Assembly: GCA_020725805.1 (NCBI GenBank)
Contig: DYEF01000023.1
Location: 1-64,000 of the forward strand
Direction of reading: 5' to 3'
DNA length: 64,000 bases
From: Bdellovibrio sp.
GTDB taxonomy: Bacteria; Myxococcota; SpSt-1050
Shown here: positions 300 to 64,000 of the stretch, one piece after another
How positions within the stretch are numbered: the stretch's first letter is position 1
Layout of the letters: each line of letters begins with the position of its first letter
Made by a program: the position numbers and the translations under genes
The notes under the pieces: model-generated
The model's input: the letters and a program-made list of their open reading frames with translations, nothing else
What the model was told of the DNA's origin: nothing
Database searches by the model: none

Positions 300-3200
300 A
301 TGACATTTGACAATCTGCTTGACAAATACCGAAAGATTTCCTTTTCCGAAAGGGATAAAGGTACTCGTTTTGAACGGCTGATGCAGGCATATCTTCTTAC
401 CGACCCGACATACGCTAATCTGTTCAAGAAAGTCTGGCTCTGGAGCGAGTTTTTTGGGCGTAAAGATCTCGGCGGAACGGATACAGGCATTGATCTGGTT
501 GCGTTGACCTGGCTGGGTGATTTCTGGGCAATCCAGTGCAAGTGCTTCCAGGAAGACGCCACAATAGATAAAGCCGCGGTTGATTCTTTTCTTTCTACAT
601 CCAGCCGCGAATTCAAGGACGAAAACCTCAAGACAACAAAATTCGCGCACCGGCTCTGGATTTCCACAACAAACAAATGGAGCAGCAACGCCACCGAGGC
701 TATTCAGAACCAGAACCCGCCAGTAACACGGATCAATTTATACGACTTACGGCAAGCACCTGTTGACTGGGAAAAACTGGATAAAGGCATTGCCGGCGTA
801 GAATCGAGAACTGCCAAAAAAGTCTTGATGCCCCACCAGAAAGAAGCCCTCGAAAGAGCGCACGAATACTTTAAAAAAGCCGATCGCGGCAAACTGATAA
901 TGGCATGCGGCACGGGCAAGACGTTCACCACGCTTCGTATCGCAGAAAACGAAACAAAAGGCAAAGGACTGATTCTTTTTCTGGTACCATCCATCTCACT
1001 TTTAGGACAGGCGCTCAGGGAATGGTCGGCAGACGCCGAAGAACCAATCAACGCCATCTGTATCTGTTCTGATCCCGAAGTATCACGAAAAAAGACCAAA
1101 GACGAAGATTCCGATACCTTCAGTGTAGTTGATCTGGCGCTGCCCGCCTCGACAAACGTCCGGGAAATAGTCTACCAGTTTAAAAATATTGACGCAAAAC
1201 GCGCTGCCGGCATGACGGTTGTTTTTTCAACATACCAATCGATAGAAGTAATCGCAAAGGCCCAGAAAGAAATCGCTAAGATCAACAAGCGATTCGGTGA
1301 ATTCGACCTCATCATCTGCGACGAAGCACATCGCACAACTGGCGTGGCGCTCACGGAAGAAGATTCCTCGGCCTTCATGAAGGTACACGACAACGACTTC
1401 ATCAAGGGGAAAAAGCGGCTCTACATGACCGCCACCCCCCGCCTGTACAGCGACGACGCCAAAGGAAAGGCCGCCCGGTTCGACGCTATTCTCTGTTCAA
1501 TGGACGATGTGTCGCTCTACGGCGAAGAGATATATCGCATCGGTTTCGGTGAAGCTGTTGAAAAGGATCTGTTGACTGATTACAAAGTCCTAATTCTCAC
1601 CTTAAGCGACAAAGATGTCCCTCCTGCAGTACAGGACATGGTTGCCGACCGGAACAAAGAGATAAACGCCGACGATGCCTCAAAGCTCATCGGCTGCGTG
1701 AACGCACTTTCCAAACAGATTCTCGGCGATGAAGGAACCATCAAGGCGACCGATCCCGAACCCATGCGCCGGGCAGTGGCATTTTGCCAGAAAATCACTG
1801 TTTCAAAGAAAATCACGACCATTTTCAACACCGCGACCGAAGCCTATATAAACTCCCTGCCGCAGGAGAAAAAAGAGCAGATGGTTTCGGTTGTTTCGCG
1901 GCACATTGACGGCAACATGTCCGCGCCGGAGCGCGACGAACTGCTTTCGTGGCTCAAGGGTTCTGGCGAAGGCAACGAATGCCGCGTGCTCACAAACGTA
2001 AGATGTCTGAGCGAGGGTGTGGACGTGCCTTCGCTCGATGCTGTGATGTTCCTTTCTGCCCGCAACTCGCAAGTTGATGTCGTACAATCCGTAGGGAGGG
2101 TCATGCGCAAGGCGCCGGGAAAGAAATACGGGTATATCATCATCCCCGTGGTTGTTCCCGCCGATGTGGAACCGCACGAAGCGCTTGACGACAATGAGCG
2201 GTACAAAGTGGTCTGGACCGTGCTCAACGCCTTGCGCGCGCACGATGACCGTTTCAACGCCACTATAAACAAGCTGGAACTGAACAAGAAAAAACCGGTA
2301 CAGATACTCGTAGGCAGGCCCGAATACACCTTTGAAAACGGACAGCCAGTCTCAGCCGTCCGCGAAGACTCCGAAACAAAATACGGCGAAATTGGACAGC
2401 AACTGGCGTTGCAATTTGAACAGCTTCAAAGCGTTGTGTTCGCCAAAATGGTGCAGAAGGTCGGCGACCGCCGCTACTGGGAACAATGGGCTGCCAGCGT
2501 TGCCCAGATCGCCGAACGGCAGGTGGAGCGCATCAACCGGCTCATAAAAGAAGAAGGAAACCATAAAAAAGCTTTTGAAGATTTCCTTGCCGGGCTGCAG
2601 AAAAACATCAACCCTTCCATAACGCAACAGGAAGCGGTTGAGATGCTCTCCCAGCATATCATCACGAAGCCGGTTTTCGAGGCGCTCTTTGACCGGTACT
2701 CGTTCGTGAAACACAACCCGATCTCGGTTTCCATGCAAAAGATGCTCGATCTGCTCGAAGCGCAGGCAATCGAAAAAGACACCGAAACGCTCAACAGCTT
2801 TTACGAATCGGTCCGCAAGCGCGCGGCAGGCATCGACAACGCCGAAGGACGGCAGCGGGTCATTATCGAACTCTACGACAAGTTCTTTAAGACCGCATTT
2901 CCCAAAATGGTGGACAAGCTCGGCATTGTCTATACGCCCATCGAGCTGGTCGATTTCATCATTCACTCGGTCAATCATGTTCTTGAAAAAGAGTTCGGCC
3001 GCACCCTGTCCGACGAAAATGTCCAGATACTCGACCCGTTTACCGGCACCGGCACCTTCATCACCCGGCTTCTGCAGAGCGGTCTGATTGCCCCAAAGGA
3101 CATGCTGCGCAAGTATCAGAAAGAAATCCACGCGAACGAAATCGTGCTTCTGGCATACTACATCGCCGCGGTGAATATCGAAAACGCGTTCCACGACGCA

Positions 3201-5165
3201 GTGGGCGCAAAGGAGTACCTCTCCTTTGACGGCATCTGCCTCACCGACACCTTCCAGTTGGGCGAAACCGATGAAAGTTCGAGCTTTATCTCCAAAATGT
3301 TCCCGCAGAACTCCGACCGGGTGCTGCGCCAGAAAAAAGCGCCGGTGCGGGTGATTATCGGGAACCCGCCGTATTCAGCAAACCAAGAAAACGCTGGCGA
3401 TGCCAATAAAAACATATCATATCCACTATTAGACTCGCAAATTAGTGCCACCTATATTGCTTTATCATCAAAAACGGATGGTAAAAGTAAAGCTTATGAT
3501 TCATATAAACGCGCAATGCGTTGGGCTACAGATAGGCTTGAACCCAATGGTATCATATGTTTTGTTAGTAATGGATCATTTATCACGGACAATAGCATGG
3601 ACGGCTTCCGCAAATGCCTCGAAAAAGAGTTCTCGGTGATTTATGTGTTTGATTGCAGGGGGAACTGCCGAACCCAGGGCGAATTGAGACGCAAAGAAGC
3701 CGGCAATGTATTCGGAGGCGGCTCCCGCACCCCGATTGCCATTACCCTGCTTGTGAAAAAGCCCAAGACCGACGGGCAAAAGGCAGAGATCTATTACCAC
3801 GACATCGGCGACTATCTGAGCAGGAAAGAAAAGCTGGAGATTATCAAGAAATTTCATTATGTCGGGAACCCGGAATTGAAGTGGAAGAGGATAAAACCCA
3901 ATGAGCATGGGGATTGGATAAATCAGCGAAACGATAGTTTTAGCACATTTCTACCTCTTGCAATAAATAAAAAGTCTGTTGCAAATCAATTTTTTTATAC
4001 ATATTCAATGGGTGTAAAGACAAACAGAGATGTTTGGGTTATTAATTTCTCAGAACATATGCTTTCTTATAATGTAAAAAGTATGATTAATTTTTTCAAT
4101 GAAGAAGTCGAAAGATATAATCAAAATTCAAAAAAAGATAAAGTTGATGTTGAAAAATTTATTGATACCAATCCAAAGAAAATAAAATGGACTGAAGATT
4201 TAATAAAAAGAGTAAAGGCTAATCGAATTATTAGATTTGATAAGACTTCTTTAAGAATTATCCATCGCCGGCCTTTCTGTAAGGAAAATATTTATTACAA
4301 TAAGAGCTTAAACTGGACACATCATTTAATGCCATCTTTATTTCCAGTTCCAGAAGTTGAAAATACTGGAATTTATGTTACAGGCACGGGCACAACTACT
4401 CCATTTAGTGTATTAGTAACTAATACATTGCCTGACTTTCAACTTATATCAAACGGCCAATGCTTCCCCCTCTACTACTACGACCTCCGCGAAAAGCAAT
4501 CCCCCTCGCTCTTCGACTCTGCCGACTCTTCAGGCGAATACGTCCGTCGTGACGGCATCACCGATTTCATTCTCGATCAGGCGCGTAAAATCTACGGCAA
4601 GTCCGTAACCAAAGAGGACATCTTTTATTATGTCTACGGCTTTCTCCATTCGCCGCAGTACCGCGAGACATTTGCGGCTGACCTCAAGAAGATGCTTCCG
4701 CGTCTGCCGCTAGTGGACGAGCCGCGCGATTTCTGGAAATTCAGCAAGGCGGGCCGGGAGCTTGCCGACCTGCATATCAATTATGAAAGCGTTCCGCCCT
4801 ATCCCGGTGTGCAGTTAACGGGAGCAGAAAGCGGGTATTTTATCGTAGAAAAAATGCGTTTCCCTACAGGTAAAAAAGCCAAAGACAAACCGGATACCAT
4901 TATTTACAACAGCAAGATTGTTGTTTCCAACATTCCCGCCAAGGCATACGACTATGTCGTGAATGGCAAATCGGCTATTGAATGGATTATGGAACGCTAT
5001 GCCGTAACCATTGACGAAGACAGCGGCATTAAAAACGACCCCAACGATTGGGCAAAGGAACACAACAACCCGCGTTATATTTTAGACTTGTTGCTGAGTA
5101 TTATCAACGTGAGCGTACAAACGGTAGATATTGTGAATAGCTTGCCGAAGCTGAAGTTTGAGTAA
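300..5165 (+). CDS. Type ISP single-chain restriction-modification enzyme
   Basis: A 1621-residue protein with the LlaGI/LlaBIII (type ISP) layout, in which one chain recognises DNA, methylates adenine, translocates with ATP and cleaves. An Mrr-like nuclease comes first (D65 and Q79-C-K81). A superfamily 2 helicase follows, with Walker A GTGKT near 204-208 and DEAH at 341-344. The N6-adenine methyltransferase has motif I DPFTGTGTF at 912 and catalytic NPPY at 1022-1025. The rest, to about 1620, should be the target recognition domain. The length matches the family (about 1570-1620). All motifs are intact, so it is probably active. DNA coding for residues about 1034-1099 and 1214-1384 is markedly more AT-rich than the rest, suggesting segment exchange. 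A DUF3644 gene follows after 7 bases and is probably co-transcribed. Confidence 0.93.
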   Translation: MTFDNLLDKYRKISFSERDKGTRFERLMQAYLLTDPTYANLFKKVWLWSEFFGRKDLGGTDTGIDLVALTWLGDFWAIQCKCFQEDATIDKAAVDSFLSTSSREFKDENLKTTKFAHRLWISTTNKWSSNATEAIQNQNPPVTRINLYDLRQAPVDWEKLDKGIAGVESRTAKKVLMPHQKEALERAHEYFKKADRGKLIMACGTGKTFTTLRIAENETKGKGLILFLVPSISLLGQALREWSADAEEPINAICICSDPEVSRKKTKDEDSDTFSVVDLALPASTNVREIVYQFKNIDAKRAAGMTVVFSTYQSIEVIAKAQKEIAKINKRFGEFDLIICDEAHRTTGVALTEEDSSAFMKVHDNDFIKGKKRLYMTATPRLYSDDAKGKAARFDAILCSMDDVSLYGEEIYRIGFGEAVEKDLLTDYKVLILTLSDKDVPPAVQDMVADRNKEINADDASKLIGCVNALSKQILGDEGTIKATDPEPMRRAVAFCQKITVSKKITTIFNTATEAYINSLPQEKKEQMVSVVSRHIDGNMSAPERDELLSWLKGSGEGNECRVLTNVRCLSEGVDVPSLDAVMFLSARNSQVDVVQSVGRVMRKAPGKKYGYIIIPVVVPADVEPHEALDDNERYKVVWTVLNALRAHDDRFNATINKLELNKKKPVQILVGRPEYTFENGQPVSAVREDSETKYGEIGQQLALQFEQLQSVVFAKMVQKVGDRRYWEQWAASVAQIAERQVERINRLIKEEGNHKKAFEDFLAGLQKNINPSITQQEAVEMLSQHIITKPVFEALFDRYSFVKHNPISVSMQKMLDLLEAQAIEKDTETLNSFYESVRKRAAGIDNAEGRQRVIIELYDKFFKTAFPKMVDKLGIVYTPIELVDFIIHSVNHVLEKEFGRTLSDENVQILDPFTGTGTFITRLLQSGLIAPKDMLRKYQKEIHANEIVLLAYYIAAVNIENAFHDAVGAKEYLSFDGICLTDTFQLGETDESSSFISKMFPQNSDRVLRQKKAPVRVIIGNPPYSANQENAGDANKNISYPLLDSQISATYIALSSKTDGKSKAYDSYKRAMRWATDRLEPNGIICFVSNGSFITDNSMDGFRKCLEKEFSVIYVFDCRGNCRTQGELRRKEAGNVFGGGSRTPIAITLLVKKPKTDGQKAEIYYHDIGDYLSRKEKLEIIKKFHYVGNPELKWKRIKPNEHGDWINQRNDSFSTFLPLAINKKSVANQFFYTYSMGVKTNRDVWVINFSEHMLSYNVKSMINFFNEEVERYNQNSKKDKVDVEKFIDTNPKKIKWTEDLIKRVKANRIIRFDKTSLRIIHRRPFCKENIYYNKSLNWTHHLMPSLFPVPEVENTGIYVTGTGTTTPFSVLVTNTLPDFQLISNGQCFPLYYYDLREKQSPSLFDSADSSGEYVRRDGITDFILDQARKIYGKSVTKEDIFYYVYGFLHSPQYRETFAADLKKMLPRLPLVDEPRDFWKFSKAGRELADLHINYESVPPYPGVQLTGAESGYFIVEKMRFPTGKKAKDKPDTIIYNSKIVVSNIPAKAYDYVVNGKSAIEWIMERYAVTIDEDSGIKNDPNDWAKEHNNPRYILDLLLSIINVSVQTVDIVNSLPKLKFE

Positions 5166-22348: not shown

Positions 22349-23713
22349 ATGTTATTCGAACCCTTCAGAATCAAAATGACCGAGCCGATAAGAATATTAT
22401 CAAGGGAAGAACGGGTAAAGAAGATCAAAGAGGCATGTTATAACCTCTTTCTTCTCAGGGCAGAGGACGTAATGATAGACCTTCTGACAGATTCCGGAAC
22501 CGGTTCTATGAGTGCAAATCAGTGGTCTGCAATAATGGTGGGTGATGAATCCTATGCCGGAGCAACGAGCTTTTTCAAATTTGAAGAGACAGTCAGAAAG
22601 ATTACAGGACTGAAATACATACTGCCGACTCATCAGGGCCGGGCCGCAGAGAGAATACTCTTCGGACTGGTTGCCAGAAAGGGTATGGTTATCCCGTCCA
22701 ACACACACTTCGATACCACGAGGGCACTTATAGAATTCAATGAGGCTCTGGCCGTCGACCTTGTTATTGACGAAGGGAAGAAACCGTCTGTAAAACACCC
22801 GTTCAAGGGGAATATGGACCTGAACAAGCTCGAGGAGACAATAAAAAAATTCGGTCCCGAGAATATTCCGCTCTGTATGATTACTATAACAAACAATTCC
22901 GGAGGCGGTCAGCCCGTCTCTCTGGAGAATATCAGAGAGACAAAAAGGCTTTTATCGAGATACAAAATCCCTCTGTTTATCGACGCCTGCAGGTTCGCCG
23001 AAAACGCCTATTTCATCAAGAAGAGGGAGAAGGGTTACGAGAATAAATCGATACTCGAGATAGCCCGTGAGATATTCAGTTATGCCGACGGCTGTACAAT
23101 GAGCGCAAAGAAGGACGGTCTGGTCAACATCGGCGGTTTTCTGGCCCTCAACAACGAGGAACTGGCAATCCGGGCAAAAAATATGCTCATCCTTACCGAA
23201 GGATTCCCGACCTACGGGGGTCTTGCGGGGAGAGACCTTGAGGCACTCGCAGTCGGACTGAACGAGGTCTTAGATGAGCAGTATCTCTCATACAGAATCG
23301 GTCAGGTGGAATACCTCGGGAACAGATTGCTCGAAAAGGGGATACCGATTATCGAGCCGACAGGGGGACACGCAGTATATATCGATGCGGGTTCACTCCT
23401 TGGTCACATCAAACCCGAGAACTTTCCCGCACAGGCCCTTTCGGTCGAACTCTACATAGAAGGCGGCATAAGGACTGTCGAGATAGGTTCTGTAATGTTC
23501 GGGAAGAAAGAGGAGTCCGGCAGATTCAAACCCGCTCCCCTAGAGCTTGTCAGGCTCGCAATTCCGAGAAGAGTCTATACGATGAGCCATATGGACTACA
23601 TTGCAGACGTGGCAGGGAGTCTGAAAGAGAGGGCAGAAGAGATCAGGGGATACAGAATTACCTACGAGGCACCGCACCTTAGGCACTTCACGGCACACTT
23701 CGAGCCGGTATGA
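22349..23713 (+). CDS. tnaA: Tryptophanase (tryptophan indole-lyase)
   Basis: A 454-residue PLP beta-eliminating lyase that splits L-tryptophan to indole, pyruvate and ammonia. Family motifs are EPFRIKMTEPIR at the start, DLLTDSGTGSMS, THQGRAAERI and GGQPVSLENI, plus the Schiff-base lysine in SAKKD (K255). Two positions separate tryptophanase from tyrosine phenol-lyase. Here D122 (in HFDTTRA) and I379 (in VEIGS) match the tryptophanase states (Asp137 and Val/Ile394) rather than the Thr and Arg of phenol-lyase. The length is normal. The ORF is open 21 codons upstream, but the promoter and ribosome site place the start at 22349. I saw no TnaC-like leader peptide. A tyrosine phenol-lyase relative lies at 59503. 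Confidence 0.9.
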   Translation: MLFEPFRIKMTEPIRILSREERVKKIKEACYNLFLLRAEDVMIDLLTDSGTGSMSANQWSAIMVGDESYAGATSFFKFEETVRKITGLKYILPTHQGRAAERILFGLVARKGMVIPSNTHFDTTRALIEFNEALAVDLVIDEGKKPSVKHPFKGNMDLNKLEETIKKFGPENIPLCMITITNNSGGGQPVSLENIRETKRLLSRYKIPLFIDACRFAENAYFIKKREKGYENKSILEIAREIFSYADGCTMSAKKDGLVNIGGFLALNNEELAIRAKNMLILTEGFPTYGGLAGRDLEALAVGLNEVLDEQYLSYRIGQVEYLGNRLLEKGIPIIEPTGGHAVYIDAGSLLGHIKPENFPAQALSVELYIEGGIRTVEIGSVMFGKKEESGRFKPAPLELVRLAIPRRVYTMSHMDYIADVAGSLKERAEEIRGYRITYEAPHLRHFTAHFEPV

Positions 23714-56832: not shown

Positions 56833-59154
56833 TTATTCTGTTGCACAGCTGTTGCTGTCGGGTACACAGAGATTTACCCCGTTTACATCCTTACAGGTGA
56901 ATTTTTCGGGGCAGGCTCCCGGGACTTTCGGGTCACAGGAAGCGAGGCAGAACATATCTGCTCCGCTGTCAGGTACCTTTACACATCTGTTGGGCGGATT
57001 CGGATTGTTATAATCCGGATTGCCGCTGTTGCAATATGCATCCTCAAAGCAGGGTACGCACAAAAGTTCGGTCATAGGAATGCATATACCCTGATACAGG
57101 GCACCAAGTCCGAGCCAGGATTCATAGCAGGCATAACCTGCCGGACAATCGGCGTTGGTCTTGCAGATGCTGGAGCATTTCCCGTTGTTGAGACAGAGGT
57201 CATTGGCGCAGGGCTTATCAATGCAGGCCTCGTGACAGACCTCGTCTGTCGAACAGGCAACGCAATCACCATTGAAGCCCGCTCCTCCCTCTGTCGGGGC
57301 AGAACAGAATGAATAGACCTTATTTGCCTTCGTATCAAATCCGTACATCTTGCAGACTTCGCCGTTGGAGCAGTCCTTGTCTCCGTTGCACTCCTTGCCG
57401 GAACCGGAGAAAGGAATACAGAGGTTTGTCTGATTTACAGTGTCATAACCCTCTGAAAGCGGCTGAGGCATACATTTCCAGGTATAATTACCGGCCTTAC
57501 CATAATCGCAGTCTGCACCGATATTGTCACAGGCGCCGGAGCAGTATCCTACTCTCAGACAGAGATTTGTCGAACAGGAGAAAGATGCCTGGCACTGCTG
57601 CCCGGGTTTGCTGGCCCCTGAATATTCCTTTGCACAGATCGAAACGGTATTGTCATCATATGTTTCGGGTCTGGAATAGTCGTCATTGTCCTCGTTGCCA
57701 AAGATAAGTTTGCAGATTTCTCCCGAGACCTTGCAGTCTGACGGCTTTTCACACTTGGTCGGCTTATCTCCCTGATAAACGGTCGGCATACAGATGCCCA
57801 TATAAACCACCGTACAGCCCGCCTGGTCGAGGCTCATTCCCACATCACGGCATACTCCCTTAAAGCCGTCGCCGTAATTGCAGGTGCAGTCCTGGTCAGT
57901 GCAGTTGACATTTGCCACACACTTGTTGTTGAGACACTTGAGACTGCAGCACTCACCGTCCACGGTACAGGTCTGGTCGACCTTCTTGCAGTTGGGATGA
58001 CAGAATGAGGCACACTTTCCTTCGAGGCAGAAGAGAGAGCAGCAATCGTCGTCTTCGGTACAGTCCTCGCCTGCCTTCTTCCCGCCTTTTGAGAGCTCAC
58101 AGGTCTCGCCGCACTTGGTATTCAGTCCAAGGATGGACTGACCGGTTTTGTCAAGAGTAAAGCCCATCTGGCATTTCTGATTATCTGAGCAGGTATTATC
58201 ACCGTAGCAGTCGGGTCTGAAACGGTTCGGGAAGCAGGATGAACAATACTTCTTCTCGACAACCACTTTGGTTTTGGTATCATAGGTCTTGAAGAGATTA
58301 CAACTCATATCTCCCACACAGTCATCATCTTTTTCACACTCCTTATCGTCCTTTACATAACAGCTCTGGCAGATATTACCTCCGTGGGCGTTCGAGGAGG
58401 CACAGTATTTTTCCTGTGAGTATATACAGTCCCTGTTGTCATTGCAATAATTTACGCATCTGTCTGTCTTCACACACATAGCCGTTCCGTACTGTGCCGA
58501 ACTCAGACACTCGTAGCAATTCATCCTGTAACCGCCAACAATGTTGAAGAACTCGGCACAATCAGCAGACTTTTCACACTTCTTCGAACAGACCGAACCT
58601 GACTTGTAAACACCGTTATCATCTCTCTCTCCGACACAATAAGTCTCCCCGGCCTTGCAGGCTACGTTCCCAAGTTTGTCACAGGGCTCTCCCGCGCCTC
58701 TGTTGAGTGGAGTACAGGCTCCTTCCGTATACATACAAACCTTCTTGGTAGAATCGAGTGAATCATATGTACAGCAGTAATTCTTCTCTCCGGCAAAGCC
58801 TGCACAGTCCGCATCTGTTTCACAGCTCTTTGAACAATAACTGTTCTTTATCTTAGCCGTAATACCGTAGCATAATCCCGACGCACAGTTGTCATCGGAT
58901 GAGCAGAGTTCACCGTTATTTTTAAGCGGCTTCTTACAGGTCTTGCTTGTAGGGTTACATTCCAGCCCCTCACAGCAGTCCTCTGTCTTTTCACACTTCT
59001 GGTTGAGGGCTGAACATTGCGGTCCGGTATCGCCGGTACCGGTAGTGTCCGTTGGTGCAGCATCCTTACTCCCGCCGTTCCCATCATCCGAGGAACATGC
59101 ATTCAGCAATGCTACCGAAAGAATAATTCCTAAAATCACCAAAAACTTCTTCAT
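56833..59154 (-). CDS. Large Cys-rich lipoprotein with Dickkopf-like repeats
   Basis: A 773-residue lipoprotein. The signal peptide (MKKFLVILGIILSVALLNAC) and an Asp/Thr/Gly linker (KDAAPTDTTGTGDTG) precede a very Cys-rich extracellular part. Repeated units resemble CxxxxCxxxxDCCxGLxCxxxxxxC, e.g. QKCEKTEDCCEGLECNPTSK, SSDDNCASGLC, DGECCSLKCLNNKCV and CEKDDDCVGDMSCN. Disulfide-rich Dickkopf-like modules are common in myxobacterial and related genomes as surface proteins of unknown role. I chose the ATG at 59154 with TAGGAGG upstream. It has its own promoter and terminator. With this many disulfides the CcdA-thioredoxin protein at 9979 may matter for its folding (inference). Confidence 0.8.
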   Translation of the reverse strand: MKKFLVILGIILSVALLNACSSDDGNGGSKDAAPTDTTGTGDTGPQCSALNQKCEKTEDCCEGLECNPTSKTCKKPLKNNGELCSSDDNCASGLCYGITAKIKNSYCSKSCETDADCAGFAGEKNYCCTYDSLDSTKKVCMYTEGACTPLNRGAGEPCDKLGNVACKAGETYCVGERDDNGVYKSGSVCSKKCEKSADCAEFFNIVGGYRMNCYECLSSAQYGTAMCVKTDRCVNYCNDNRDCIYSQEKYCASSNAHGGNICQSCYVKDDKECEKDDDCVGDMSCNLFKTYDTKTKVVVEKKYCSSCFPNRFRPDCYGDNTCSDNQKCQMGFTLDKTGQSILGLNTKCGETCELSKGGKKAGEDCTEDDDCCSLFCLEGKCASFCHPNCKKVDQTCTVDGECCSLKCLNNKCVANVNCTDQDCTCNYGDGFKGVCRDVGMSLDQAGCTVVYMGICMPTVYQGDKPTKCEKPSDCKVSGEICKLIFGNEDNDDYSRPETYDDNTVSICAKEYSGASKPGQQCQASFSCSTNLCLRVGYCSGACDNIGADCDYGKAGNYTWKCMPQPLSEGYDTVNQTNLCIPFSGSGKECNGDKDCSNGEVCKMYGFDTKANKVYSFCSAPTEGGAGFNGDCVACSTDEVCHEACIDKPCANDLCLNNGKCSSICKTNADCPAGYACYESWLGLGALYQGICIPMTELLCVPCFEDAYCNSGNPDYNNPNPPNRCVKVPDSGADMFCLASCDPKVPGACPEKFTCKDVNGVNLCVPDSNSCATE

Positions 59155-59201
59155 CAAAAACCTCCTAAAAATGGTTTATTTACGCCAAAAACAGCCCGCC
59201 T

Positions 59202-59502: not shown

Positions 59503-62160
59503 ATGCTTATTCACGAACCTTACAAGATCAAATCAGTCAGAAATATTCCATTCACCACCTATAATGAGAGAAAGAGAATCCTGAGAGAGCATTTTTACAA
59601 TACAACGTTAATTCCCGCCGATAAAGTAACATTCGATATGGCCACACAGGGAACATCTGCAATGTCTCAGGAACAGGTAGCCGCACTCTTTGTTGGAGAT
59701 GAGGCCTATGCAGGGGCTGTAAATTTCTATCATCTGGAGAATGCAGTAAGAGATGTCTTCGGACTTAAAAACATATGCCCCACACACAACAGATTCGGTA
59801 ACATTAAGCTGCTGACCTCGATCATGGTCAAAAGCGGAAAATCGGCCTTCTCGAACATAAGACAGCCAAAGGAAATAGTCGAATACTACAAGGGCCGCTT
59901 CGTCCAGATATCCTCAAGGGAGGAGAACGGTTTCTCTATACTGGATGTGTCAGAGGTCAAAAAAGCAAAGAAAGACGAGACCGCCTACATATTCATAGAC
60001 CTGAGAAGCGATGAGGGGAGACCGGTCTGCCCGTCCTGCCTTAATGAGATTGCACATTTTTCGAAAGACTCGGGTATCCCGCTGATTATCGACTGTTCGA
60101 ACATCGTCCTCTGGGCAAACAGGGTAAAGAATGTCGCAAAAGACTATTCATCGAAGAGAATCTCCGAAATTATTAAGGAGGTCTCCGCTCTCGCAACAAC
60201 TGTGGCATTCGACGCCGGACAGGATGCGATGAGTAATGTCGGAGGATTTCTTGCAACAAACGACCCGAAGCATCACGAGGCCCATCAGAACGAAGTCGTA
60301 ATATATGAGGGGCTGCACACCTACGGAGGTATGGCCGGAAGGACAATGGAAGTAGTCGCTGTCGGGCTGAGGGATATGACCGATGAAAACAATGCAGTTT
60401 GGTACCAGCAGCAGATCGACCTCTTATCGGAAATTCTCTCCAAAGAGAGAGTACCTCACTATAAGGGACTGGACGGCGTATACCTCTGTGCGGACAAGTT
60501 CCTCAGCCACCTCAGGGAGAACAGGACCCACACACTGGCAACTGCAATCTATCTGAAATCCGGGGTAAGGGCATATCTTGGAGGCAGATATATACCGTCC
60601 GAGATTCTGCCCGTTCAGATTCCGAGAAGGGCACTTTTAAACAGACAGGTCGTTCAGATCGCAGAGGCAATATGCGAACTCTTCAGAGAGGCCGCTCAGA
60701 TACCGGCGCTCGTTCTGACCAACAGACCCGAATATCACAACGAGGCTGTATTCGACTGGCTCATACCGGTTATCAGGCCTTACGAATTCGAATGCGAACC
60801 TTATACGGTCCACGCAATCGAGAAGATTGCAATGAAGAGCGTGGAGGAGAGACGAAAGGCGGCAGAAGAGGCAGGTTACAATACATTTCTCCTTAAAATG
60901 GAGGATGTGACAATCGACCTGCTCACAGACTCCGGAACGGCAGCTATGAGTGTAGAGCAGTGGAAGGCTTACCTCGGCGCCATAGAGACACCAAACACAT
61001 CTGATGCCTATATCGACCTTGTCAGAACCGCACAGAAGGTATACGGTTACAAACATATTATCCTTACCCATCAGGGCAGAGCAGCAGAACACATAATGTC
61101 CCAGATGTTTATCAGACCGGGTGACTACGTGCCCGGCAATATGTACTTCACGACCACCAAGCAGCATCAGGAGATGGCAGGCGGAATTTTCGTGGACGTA
61201 ATCGTCGATGAGGCAAACGATACAGACTCAGACTTCGAATGGAAGGGAAATGTGGACCTGAAAAAACTCTCGGACCTCTACGATAAGGCAAAATCCGAAG
61301 GCAAAAAGCTTGCATACATCTCATTCGAATTCAATGTAAATCTTGCAGGCGGACAACCGGTCTCGATGGACAATATGAAGGAGGTCTATGAATTCTGCAA
61401 ACCGAGAGGAATCCCGGTATTCTTCGATGCGACGAGATGCTCTGAAAATGCGATATTCATCAAGCAGAGGGACCCGAGATACAGGGATGCAAGCATCGGG
61501 GATATACTTCTCGAGATGTTCAGTTACGGCGACGGTGCCACCATTTCAGCCAAAAAGGATATGCTCACAAACCTCTCGGGAGCACTCCTCTTCAGGGATA
61601 ACGAAGAGTGGTACAGAGAGGCTCTCAGGATGCTGCAGATATTCGAAGGAGGTCATTCAAGCGGCGGTACATCTGCAGGAGATATGGCAACACACGCACA
61701 GGGATTGAGAGAGATGGTCGATGAAAGATATCTCAAGGCAAGGGTCGAACAGGCGAGATATCTGGGCAAACTCCTGATCGATGCGGGTATTCCGATTGTA
61801 ATGCCTCCGGGAGGCCATGCGGTATTCCTCGATGCGAAGAAATTCCTCCCTCACCTCGACCAGGACCAGTTTCCGGCACAGACGCTCGCGGCACACATAT
61901 TTATCGAGACCGGAGTCCGGGCAATGGAGAGGGGAAACGTAAGCAAGGGAAGGGACCCGAAGACGGGAAAGAATTACAGACCCAAACTCGAGCTCGTTAG
62001 ACTTACAATACCCAGAAGGGTATACTCACTCGACCATATGAAGGCTGTTGCAGAGGGAATCATCAGACTATACAGGAAGCGCGATTCCATAAGGGGACTC
62101 GAATTTACATACGAACCGAAGGCACTCAGATTCTTCCAGTCCAGATTCAGACTCATTTGA
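59503..62160 (+). CDS. Tandem tyrosine phenol-lyase-like protein with degenerate N-terminal copy
   Basis: 885 residues; single-domain family members have about 450-475. The C-terminal unit (about 425-885) is a full PLP beta-lyase: DLLTDSGTAAMS, THQGRAAEHI, GGQPVSMDNM, Schiff-base lysine K685 in SAKKD, with T550 (MYFTTT) and R810 (AMERGN), the residues typical of tyrosine phenol-lyase (Thr124 and Arg381). It would split tyrosine into phenol, pyruvate and ammonia. The N-terminal unit (1 to about 410) aligns over the same landmarks: EPYKIKSVRNI, FVGDEAYAGAVNFY, LHTYGGMAGRTMEVVAVGL. But DSGT is TQGT, THQGR is THNRF, and the lysine site reads AGQDAMSNVGG, with Gln240 at the Schiff-base position. 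It should be inactive and may regulate, stabilise or pair with the other half. Confidence 0.9.
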   Translation: MLIHEPYKIKSVRNIPFTTYNERKRILREHFYNTTLIPADKVTFDMATQGTSAMSQEQVAALFVGDEAYAGAVNFYHLENAVRDVFGLKNICPTHNRFGNIKLLTSIMVKSGKSAFSNIRQPKEIVEYYKGRFVQISSREENGFSILDVSEVKKAKKDETAYIFIDLRSDEGRPVCPSCLNEIAHFSKDSGIPLIIDCSNIVLWANRVKNVAKDYSSKRISEIIKEVSALATTVAFDAGQDAMSNVGGFLATNDPKHHEAHQNEVVIYEGLHTYGGMAGRTMEVVAVGLRDMTDENNAVWYQQQIDLLSEILSKERVPHYKGLDGVYLCADKFLSHLRENRTHTLATAIYLKSGVRAYLGGRYIPSEILPVQIPRRALLNRQVVQIAEAICELFREAAQIPALVLTNRPEYHNEAVFDWLIPVIRPYEFECEPYTVHAIEKIAMKSVEERRKAAEEAGYNTFLLKMEDVTIDLLTDSGTAAMSVEQWKAYLGAIETPNTSDAYIDLVRTAQKVYGYKHIILTHQGRAAEHIMSQMFIRPGDYVPGNMYFTTTKQHQEMAGGIFVDVIVDEANDTDSDFEWKGNVDLKKLSDLYDKAKSEGKKLAYISFEFNVNLAGGQPVSMDNMKEVYEFCKPRGIPVFFDATRCSENAIFIKQRDPRYRDASIGDILLEMFSYGDGATISAKKDMLTNLSGALLFRDNEEWYREALRMLQIFEGGHSSGGTSAGDMATHAQGLREMVDERYLKARVEQARYLGKLLIDAGIPIVMPPGGHAVFLDAKKFLPHLDQDQFPAQTLAAHIFIETGVRAMERGNVSKGRDPKTGKNYRPKLELVRLTIPRRVYSLDHMKAVAEGIIRLYRKRDSIRGLEFTYEPKALRFFQSRFRLI

Positions 62161-62324: not shown

Positions 62325-62408
62325 TAGCCCGTTAACTTTATATTTTTTTGAGTAATGATGAGCATTTTTCTGAATTTAATTAATAATTTTATTACGAAGG
62401 GAGCAGAG

Positions 62409-64000
62409 ATGAACAAGGCAAGATTTTTTGTGCTTTTTCTGGGAATTTTTATCTTTACAGGACTTCTTGTCAGCTGTGTAAGTGACAAGGAGGCAAGCAA
62501 ATTCGTGGAGAAACTCGAGAAGAAACCGGGAGAAGGGAAACCTGCGTCATACTGGGTTAAAAAGCTGACCGATGTTCAGCTCAAACCGGATGCCGTAAAA
62601 GCACTTATGGAACTCAAGGACAAGAGCGTTATTCCGCAGCTCACGGAACTCTTCAAAAAGGACAGGTCGCTCAGAGCCGACATTGCCGAGATTCTCGGTA
62701 TGCTCGGAGAGAAGAGCACAGCCCCTGTACTTCTTGAAGGACTGGTCTTCGAGGTTTCCAACAATATTCAGGAACAGAGAGAGAATGACAGAATCAACGA
62801 GAAGATTCTCGGCGCCCTCGCTGCTATGCAGGAAGAGTCGGCAAAGCCGGCCGTAATCAAGCTTCTCTCATCCACCTCTGCACCGGTTCTCGCCGCCGCA
62901 GTCAGGGCCGAAAAGGTCTTCAAGGATAAAAACGCCGTCGACGCCCTCATTGCAATTATCAGGAATGACAATCTTTCAAAGGCTATAAGGGCCGATGCAA
63001 TTTATGTTCTGGGTGAAATCGGCGACCCGAAGGCCGTTCCTGCACTCGTCAGGGCAATGTACATCGAGAGACAGGGTACCGTTTACCCTGAGGCAAACGA
63101 GGCACTTCAGAAAATCGGCAAAGCCGCCGTTCCTGAACTCGTAAAGACATTTCTGGGTAAGAATGAAGAGGTCAGGCAGCTCGCCGAAAAATCCAACTTC
63201 GTCGTAGGTGCAATCGAGGGGAAGGCCGCAGAGACACTCGGCGACATCTGTGACCTCTCTGCAGAGGACGCACTCTTAAAGATGGTTAAATCGGACGAGG
63301 ACAATCCCATTGCCAAATCCAAGGCCGCCTTTGCGCTCGGAAGGATGCAGTCCAAGAAGGCAGCACCCGTTATGGCAAAACTTGCAGAAGATGAAGAAGA
63401 CCCCTCGGTAAGGGCCCATTACCTCCTTGCAATAAATCTCATCGGTGATACTTCCGTTATACCGTCACTCGTGAAGGGTGCAAAAAAGCCGGACCTCGAC
63501 AAGTATAAGAAGGAAGGGGCAACACAGCAGGAACTCGACATCCTCAGAAAAGGAAGGGAAGAGGTAGTAAAGACAATAGCAAGGCTCGCCACCGACAAGG
63601 ATGCAGCTCATTACGATAAGGTTATGAAGGAAGAGAAGAATCCGGAAATCAGCAAGGTAATAAAGGAATATTCCGTGATGATCGATGTCGCAAAGGAATG
63701 CAAGGGTGATTTTGCCTGTTACAAAGGAAAGCTCTCCGACACAAACAAGGTTGTAAGAGAGAAGGCCGCATATATGATCGGAAGAATAGATTCTGAAGAG
63801 GCGGTCAATACCCTGATAGACCTGCTCGGGACAGAGAAGGACAACGATGTAAAATTTGCTGTCCTGCAGGGCCTGTTCAATTTCTCGGGCAAATATTACA
63901 AGACAATGCTGCCGAAGATCGAGGCAAAGGTAGCTGAGCTCAAGGATGATATTCTCAAAAACGACCTGAACAGACTTCTGCTCAGATTAAAAAGCTTGAA
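62409..64000 (+). CDS. HEAT-repeat lipoprotein, cut by the right edge
   Basis: An open frame from an ATG with AAGGGAG upstream to the end of the window; 530 codons are seen and no stop is reached. The signal peptide (MNKARFFVLFLGIFIFTGLL) ends at the lipobox Cys in LVSC. The mature protein is made of helical repeats of about 30-35 residues of HEAT/PBS-lyase kind: AVKALMELKDKSVIPQLTEL, IRADAIYVLGEIGDPKAVPA, SKAAFALGRMQSKKAAPVMA, VREKAAYMIGRIDSEEAVNT. Such solenoids form protein-binding scaffolds; here at the membrane surface. No catalytic motif is visible. Confidence 0.85.
   Translation, partial: MNKARFFVLFLGIFIFTGLLVSCVSDKEASKFVEKLEKKPGEGKPASYWVKKLTDVQLKPDAVKALMELKDKSVIPQLTELFKKDRSLRADIAEILGMLGEKSTAPVLLEGLVFEVSNNIQEQRENDRINEKILGALAAMQEESAKPAVIKLLSSTSAPVLAAAVRAEKVFKDKNAVDALIAIIRNDNLSKAIRADAIYVLGEIGDPKAVPALVRAMYIERQGTVYPEANEALQKIGKAAVPELVKTFLGKNEEVRQLAEKSNFVVGAIEGKAAETLGDICDLSAEDALLKMVKSDEDNPIAKSKAAFALGRMQSKKAAPVMAKLAEDEEDPSVRAHYLLAINLIGDTSVIPSLVKGAKKPDLDKYKKEGATQQELDILRKGREEVVKTIARLATDKDAAHYDKVMKEEKNPEISKVIKEYSVMIDVAKECKGDFACYKGKLSDTNKVVREKAAYMIGRIDSEEAVNTLIDLLGTEKDNDVKFAVLQGLFNFSGKYYKTMLPKIEAKVAELKDDILKNDLNRLLLRLKSL

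Follow-up and report, generated by a model that had tools for sequence, protein, structure and literature searches.

A recurrent tandem tyrosine phenol-lyase fusion predicted to share one active site between two reciprocally decayed halves

Locus and architecture of the fused gene

The window, i.e. the whole 64,000-nucleotide stretch of DNA that was analysed, carries on its forward strand one open frame running from an ATG at 59503 to a stop at 62160 and encoding 885 amino acids. A purine-rich ribosome-binding stretch (AGGAAAGGAA) lies a few bases 5' of the ATG. The features of this gene are listed below, with equivalent residues of tyrosine phenol-lyase (TPL) after the equals sign.

59503–62160, +: fused tandem gene of TPL type, 885 aa, a single frame across both halves (frame, profiles, genus mate, fused loci)
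59503–60741, +: N-terminal pseudo-half, residues 1–413; beta-lyase fold without the PLP lysine and with the residues that are donated to a partner (sequence and model match)
59695–59715, +: GDEAYAG loop with Asp66, Glu67, Tyr69 (= Tyr71), Ala70 and Gly71, invariant in N-halves and destroyed in C-halves (alignment; function from PMC11301627, PMC9262865)
60211–60225, +: D237-A-G-Q240-D241 in place of S254-G-K256-K257-D258, with Gln for the PLP lysine (alignment)
60307–60351, +: EGLHTYGGMAGRTME loop with Tyr274 (= Tyr291) and Arg280 (= R297), each invariant across the N-halves (alignment; trans contact from PMC2770544)
60742–60789, +: linker between the halves, about residues 414–429, poorly conserved (alignment)
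60790–62157, +: C-terminal catalytic half, residues 430–885, TPL type (profiles, structure match)
60982–60999, +: IETPNT, with Pro497 at the Tyr71 position; Tyr gone in 48/48 C-halves (alignment)
61147–61152, +: Phe549-Thr550 (= F123, T124), PLP stacking and phenol recognition (alignment)
61546–61557, +: S682-A-K684-K685, PLP lysine K685 (= K257) and phosphate site (alignment)
61651–61680, +: G717, S720 and G726 at the M288, Y291 and R297 positions, all lost (alignment)
61924–62001, +: Met808 and Arg810 (= M379, R381, TPL specificity) and Arg833 (= R404, substrate carboxylate) (alignment)

The first-pass annotation of this DNA had described the product as two beta-lyase units in line, and the halves do match PF01212 and the TPL/tryptophanase (TnaA) models separately. 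The N-half alone was recognised by PF01212 (E 1.5e-23) and NF009709 (8e-72), and the C-half alone by PF01212 (6e-63) and TIGR02618 (3.7e-184). Among solved structures, TPL was the best sequence match of both halves, with 54% identity between the C-half and TPL 1c7g. Scores against TIGR02618 were 612.8 for the C-half alone, 231.4 for the N-half and 836.1 for the whole chain (the sum of two stretches), the equivalog cut-off being 720.7. TPL subunits are identical one-unit chains of about 450–475 residues assembled as homotetramers; the predicted product of this gene is an 885-residue chain with unequal halves.

Reciprocal loss of active-site residues

Catalysis in this family depends on residues supplied across a subunit interface. 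In Escherichia coli tryptophanase, the PLP phosphate of one subunit is hydrogen-bonded by Tyr74 and Tyr307 (= Tyr71 and Tyr291 of TPL) of its neighbour, and the Y74F variant has negligible activity (PMC2770544). In Proteus vulgaris tryptophanase, too, the proton donor, Tyr72*, belongs to the second chain of the catalytic dimer (PMC11301627). The leaving carbon is protonated in TPL by Tyr-71, with the substrate hydroxyl held by Arg-381 and Thr-124 (PMC9262865).

The C-half of the window gene has kept the PLP lysine and the phosphate and pyridine site in cis (K685, S682, K684, Q524-G525-R526, D642, R645), all of which are conserved in every complete C-half. The TPL-specific substrate residues Thr124, Arg381, Met379 and Phe448/449 are present as T550, R810, M808 and F877/F878, and were kept in every C-half covering them except for one odd end in L072. 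The alignment thus bears out the earlier assignment of K685, T550 and R810 to K257, T124 and R381. What the first-pass annotation had missed is that the C-half is also damaged, namely in the residues that a partner would donate: Y71 is replaced by P497, M288 by G717, Y291 by S720 and R297 by G726. In the N-half, Gln240 was correctly placed at the position of the PLP lysine, and the DSGT and THQGR loops reported as lost were found as T-QGT, with D50 deleted, and THNRF. The equivalents of Tyr71 and Tyr291 are hence present in the fused chain as a whole (Y69 and Y274, N-half) and absent from its catalytic half.

The same pattern was observed across 48 fused loci, 7 from a search of the phylum and 41 (L033–L073) from a wider scan described below, 47 of them being distinct; L033 is apparently the same contig as L003. 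All N-halves have Y71, Y291, E69 and R297 (48/48 each), and none has the PLP lysine (Gln in 44, Glu in 4) or R404. Among the C-halves covering each position, the PLP lysine was found in 43/43, T124 in 48/48 and R381 in 42/42, as opposed to Y71 in 0/48 and Y291 in 0/43. Both sets are retained in single-chain enzymes (Y71 in 80/81, Y291 in 81/81, Lys in 80/81), where the exceptional row is either L075, a fusion truncated by a contig end, or a gap. An unbiased scan compared N- and C-halves at 106 positions, all of them conserved among 80 single-chain enzymes. Only eight persist in N but not in C (K11, D68, E69, Y71, A72, G73, Y291, G296), i.e. the two donated-tyrosine loops plus K11, and 38, mostly PLP and substrate residues, persist in C but not in N. 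The decay is reciprocal, each half being without active-site parts that the other half keeps.

Proposed composite active site and predicted structure

We consider it very probable that the chain is a single-chain, obligately heterodimeric TPL with complementary halves and one composite active site, and we infer its spatial pairing, stoichiometry and reaction; its architecture, recurrence and single origin and the reciprocal residue loss are shown by the present analysis. Tandem duplication and fusion would have joined both subunits of the catalytic dimer, and parts that had become dispensable would then have been lost from each half. The C-half would form the Schiff base with PLP and bind the substrate (K685, R833, T550, R810, M808, F877/F878). 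The N-half, no longer binding PLP itself, would reach over the interface with Tyr69 and Tyr274 into the C-half site; there Tyr69 (TPL Tyr71) would protonate the carbon of the phenol leaving group, and the PLP phosphate would be held with the help of both tyrosines. Each 885-residue chain would contain one site, and two paired chains two sites, against four in the ordinary tetramer. The potassium site may be shared as well, with Gly52 and Asn262 in the C-half and Glu69, which presumably acts there in trans, in the N-half (48/48). Because Tyr71 and Tyr291 are missing in all fusions covering these positions, the C-half should be inactive without the N-half. The earlier proposal that a pseudoenzyme half replaces a subunit holds in so far as the N-half would be the partner in the catalytic dimer and would supply the trans residues; its view of the C-half as a complete active enzyme does not, since Tyr71 and Tyr291 are lacking there.

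AlphaFold2 models were obtained for the window chain (mean pLDDT 84.6, pTM 0.80) and for L042 (mean pLDDT 81.2, pTM 0.69), with low confidence at residues 68–70 and 461–480. The modelled N-half (residues 1–405) matched tryptophanase 4up2_C with Z 41.2 over 376 aligned residues; the C-half model matched TPL 7tcs_A with Z 49.8. The full model aligned through residues 68–885 on TPL 38–456, too indirectly for placing the N-half loop in the C-half site. As both pTM values exceed about 0.5, our own estimate for two well-folded but unplaced halves, the halves are placed relative to each other with fair confidence. This placement within single chains speaks, short of proof, against a domain-swapped assembly, in which the N-half of one chain would pair with the C-half of another to form the same composite site. 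The residue pattern would be met by any pairing of N- and C-halves, and the linker is short and variable; nevertheless, we regard the swapped arrangement as unlikely.

Remodelled pocket of the N-half

Asp237 and Gln240 are invariant in 43/43 non-basal fusions. They belong to a set of new N-half residues, N98, K104, S216, D254, Q257 and W317 in TPL numbering (N96, K102, S199, D237, Q240 and W300 of the window protein, window 59788–60402), that is invariant in all 43 non-basal N-halves. Most of them lie at or beside PLP-site positions, W300 being near in sequence order. The dead PLP pocket thus appears to be remodelled and conserved, not simply relaxed.

Such conservation would suit a reading in which the N-half donates its residues, the general acid included, and also senses a ligand, the remodelled empty pocket binding an effector that gates the C-half and switches the single site on or off. 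Control of the lyase would then run through a relic duplicate of its active site. However, the new invariant residues may merely fill the vacated pocket, and the R404 position is occupied by Pro in 39/48 N-halves, so that the amino-acid carboxylate site is gone. We therefore treat this ligand-sensing role as a rather doubtful extension of the composite-site reading.

Probable reaction

The reaction most likely catalysed would be the reversible conversion of L-tyrosine to phenol, pyruvate and ammonia, in amino-acid catabolism. Nearly all fusion genomes checked carry a separate one-unit tryptophanase-like gene, and a single-chain TPL-type gene, called by identity >= 49% only, accompanied the fusion in 0/41 surveyed genomes, where about 2 would be expected by chance, so that this absence weighs little. 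With the TPL-specific residues kept, a separate TnaA-type gene present and no single-chain TPL gene, the reaction is most probably that of TPL. A C-half that had drifted to another beta-elimination reaction, within a composite site that is itself real, would agree with its score below the TIGR02618 cut-off when taken alone; in view of the retained specificity residues and of the gene complement we find such drift improbable.

Very improbable, in our judgement, is that the N-half acts merely as a structural tether or chaperone which fixes the oligomer, with a full active site rebuilt in the C-half from other residues. Scaffolding is common among pseudo-subunits, and the PLP and substrate residues are missing from the N-half. 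Against this, the strongest constraint on the N-half falls on the two donated-tyrosine loops (48/48), and no fusion has a C-half Tyr at either site.

Distribution and origin of the fusion

The one other genome of the genus examined encodes the same 885-residue chain at 85% identity and without a stop. The fusion was found in 7/195 genomes of the phylum with both halves in one frame, and a scan of the species-genome collection with the N-half alignment returned 41 fused loci (L033–L073), all of which continue in frame from the N-half into a C-half of TPL type. By record titles, the at least 47 distinct loci belong to Myxococcota/"Deltaproteobacteria", Bacteroidota, Gemmatimonadota, Acidobacteriota, Planctomycetota, Chloroflexota, Desulfobacterota and Lysobacterales, and include one named strain, Plebeiobacterium marinum D04 (L042:6004–8649). 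The recurrence that the first-pass annotation had named as supporting evidence was thereby observed. Of the genomes sampled from the phylum to which one Gemmatimonadota locus belongs, 10/395 had the fusion, as did 24/393 from the order of L042.

No two-gene version of the pseudo-half was seen, every N-half match in L033–L073 being fused. A possible split copy (L117; G114:C45, about 2650–3960) proved to be a frameshifted one-unit tryptophanase (TnaA)-like gene. The ten best matches in plasmid records were all one-unit TPLs, and no match was found in phage families. It should be added that in L072 (CP070823, 5965–8892, +), G390 and G339 the C-half match to TPL ends at about residue 320–340 and the frame stays open, possibly by a frameshift or a truncated match.

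In a tree of both halves, the N-halves formed one clade and the C-halves another (SH-aLRT 97 and 100) with matching internal order; the tree was built quickly and its N-half branches are long, so that its deep placement is less sure. Separate trees of the N- and C-halves had 24/35 splits in common, against 0.25 expected, and no conflict among well-supported splits. Because the two trees mirror each other, a single duplication and fusion followed by joint inheritance of the halves is the history they indicate. The window sequence groups with Bacteroidales and Deltaproteobacteria MAGs at 60–61% identity, which suggests transfers of the fusion between phyla.

The error of sequencing or assembly that could have joined two adjacent genes, named by the first-pass annotation as what would overturn its reading, has practically no chance of being correct: fusion artefacts are common and Bacteroidota have adjacent TPL and TnaA-type genes, but the layout recurs at distinct loci in several phyla, among them the P. 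marinum strain and MAG records whose titles call them chromosomes (CP070722, CP070670), the halves are co-inherited, and this recurrence, together with the intact chain of the genus mate and the in-frame junctions, rules it out.

A basal group (L006–L009) shows the order of loss as a graded series. Its C-halves have lost Y71, M288, Y291 and E300 and retained D68, E69, G73, G296 and R297. In its N-halves the PLP lysine is already Glu and R404 is gone, more of the phosphate loop is retained, and S-G-K-type residues still precede the lost lysine. Between the two genus members, dN was 0.17 for the N-half and 0.05 for the C-half with dS saturated, which places both halves under purifying selection.

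Gene neighbourhood and other family members

No conserved gene neighbourhood was found across all loci, only local themes. In some Bacteroidales the genes next to the fusion encode a ligase of ADP-forming acyl-CoA type, an aminotransferase and a subunit of pyruvate/2-oxoacid:ferredoxin oxidoreductase, and an Lrp/AsnC regulator adjoins it in three loci. This amino-acid fermentation set and the regulators fit amino-acid catabolism.

In the window, a 774-aa cysteine-rich lipoprotein gene without a Pfam match (56833–59157, −) lies upstream of the fusion, and a gene for a HEAT-repeat lipoprotein (62352–63998, +) directly downstream. The genus mate also has a similar cysteine-rich lipoprotein gene upstream (L033:3209–5590); its downstream gene is a different one, encoding a membrane protein (L033:8692–9822). 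The only other family member found in the source genome is an ordinary single-chain tryptophanase-type beta-lyase at window 22352–23704 (+), with D at 124, I at 381 and H at 448 in TPL numbering. At 12 loci of Bacteroidota and relatives (L078, L080, L082, L083, L086, L088, L092, L096, L100, L102, L107, L111), a single-chain TPL gene directly adjoins a second single-chain family gene, tryptophanase-like by score.

Comparison with known systems

Compared with TPL (EC 4.1.99.2; Citrobacter freundii and Erwinia herbicola, PDB 2ez1, 1c7g), the C-half of the fusion has the same fold and keeps every cis active-site residue tested, and the N-half keeps the partner-donated ones. The enzymes described so far assemble as homotetramers, with chains of about 456 residues and four equal sites, whereas the fusion has two unequal halves and a predicted single site per chain. 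Tryptophan indole-lyase (tryptophanase) of E. coli and P. vulgaris shares the fold and both trans tyrosines, which in the E. coli enzyme are Tyr74 and Tyr307 (PMC2770544), but differs in specificity residues, those of the fusion being TPL-type T124/R381/F448 and not TnaA-type D/I/H.

We regard the eukaryotic serine palmitoyltransferase LCB1/LCB2 (SPT1/SPT2) as the closest analogue. In this PLP heterodimer of fold type I, the PLP lysine is missing from one subunit and the single active site lies presumably at the interface (PMC6148460); in the fusions, correspondingly, one unit is without the cofactor lysine (0/48 N-halves). It differs in belonging to the alpha-oxoamine synthase family, in the independent origin of the arrangement and in its separate chains in yeast and man. 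The AdoMet decarboxylase of Trypanosoma also requires a catalytically dead paralogue, the prozyme, for activity (PMC5201418), but fold and cofactor are other ones, the chains are separate, and activation proceeds through relief of autoinhibition, not through donated residues. Thiocysteine lyase (SH) domains embedded in polyketide synthases (PDB 9cen) have the Beta_elim_lyase fold, with one lyase unit in an assembly line and no pseudo-half. In the open-access papers searched, no account of a TPL that is fused or heterodimeric was found.

Implications

Family models name the fusion genes plain tryptophanase or TPL, an annotation to be corrected, as neither half should work alone. TPL is used for making L-DOPA and other tyrosines, and a single-chain TPL with two independently changeable faces would have practical use. 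Furthermore, the fusion would provide a natural single-site version of TPL/tryptophanase for studies of subunit communication. It would represent a clean natural case in which two fused copies of a symmetric enzyme split one active site. With 47 distinct sequences, intermediates visible and both halves readable residue by residue, it would allow a direct test of how symmetric homo-oligomers turn into obligate asymmetric ones.
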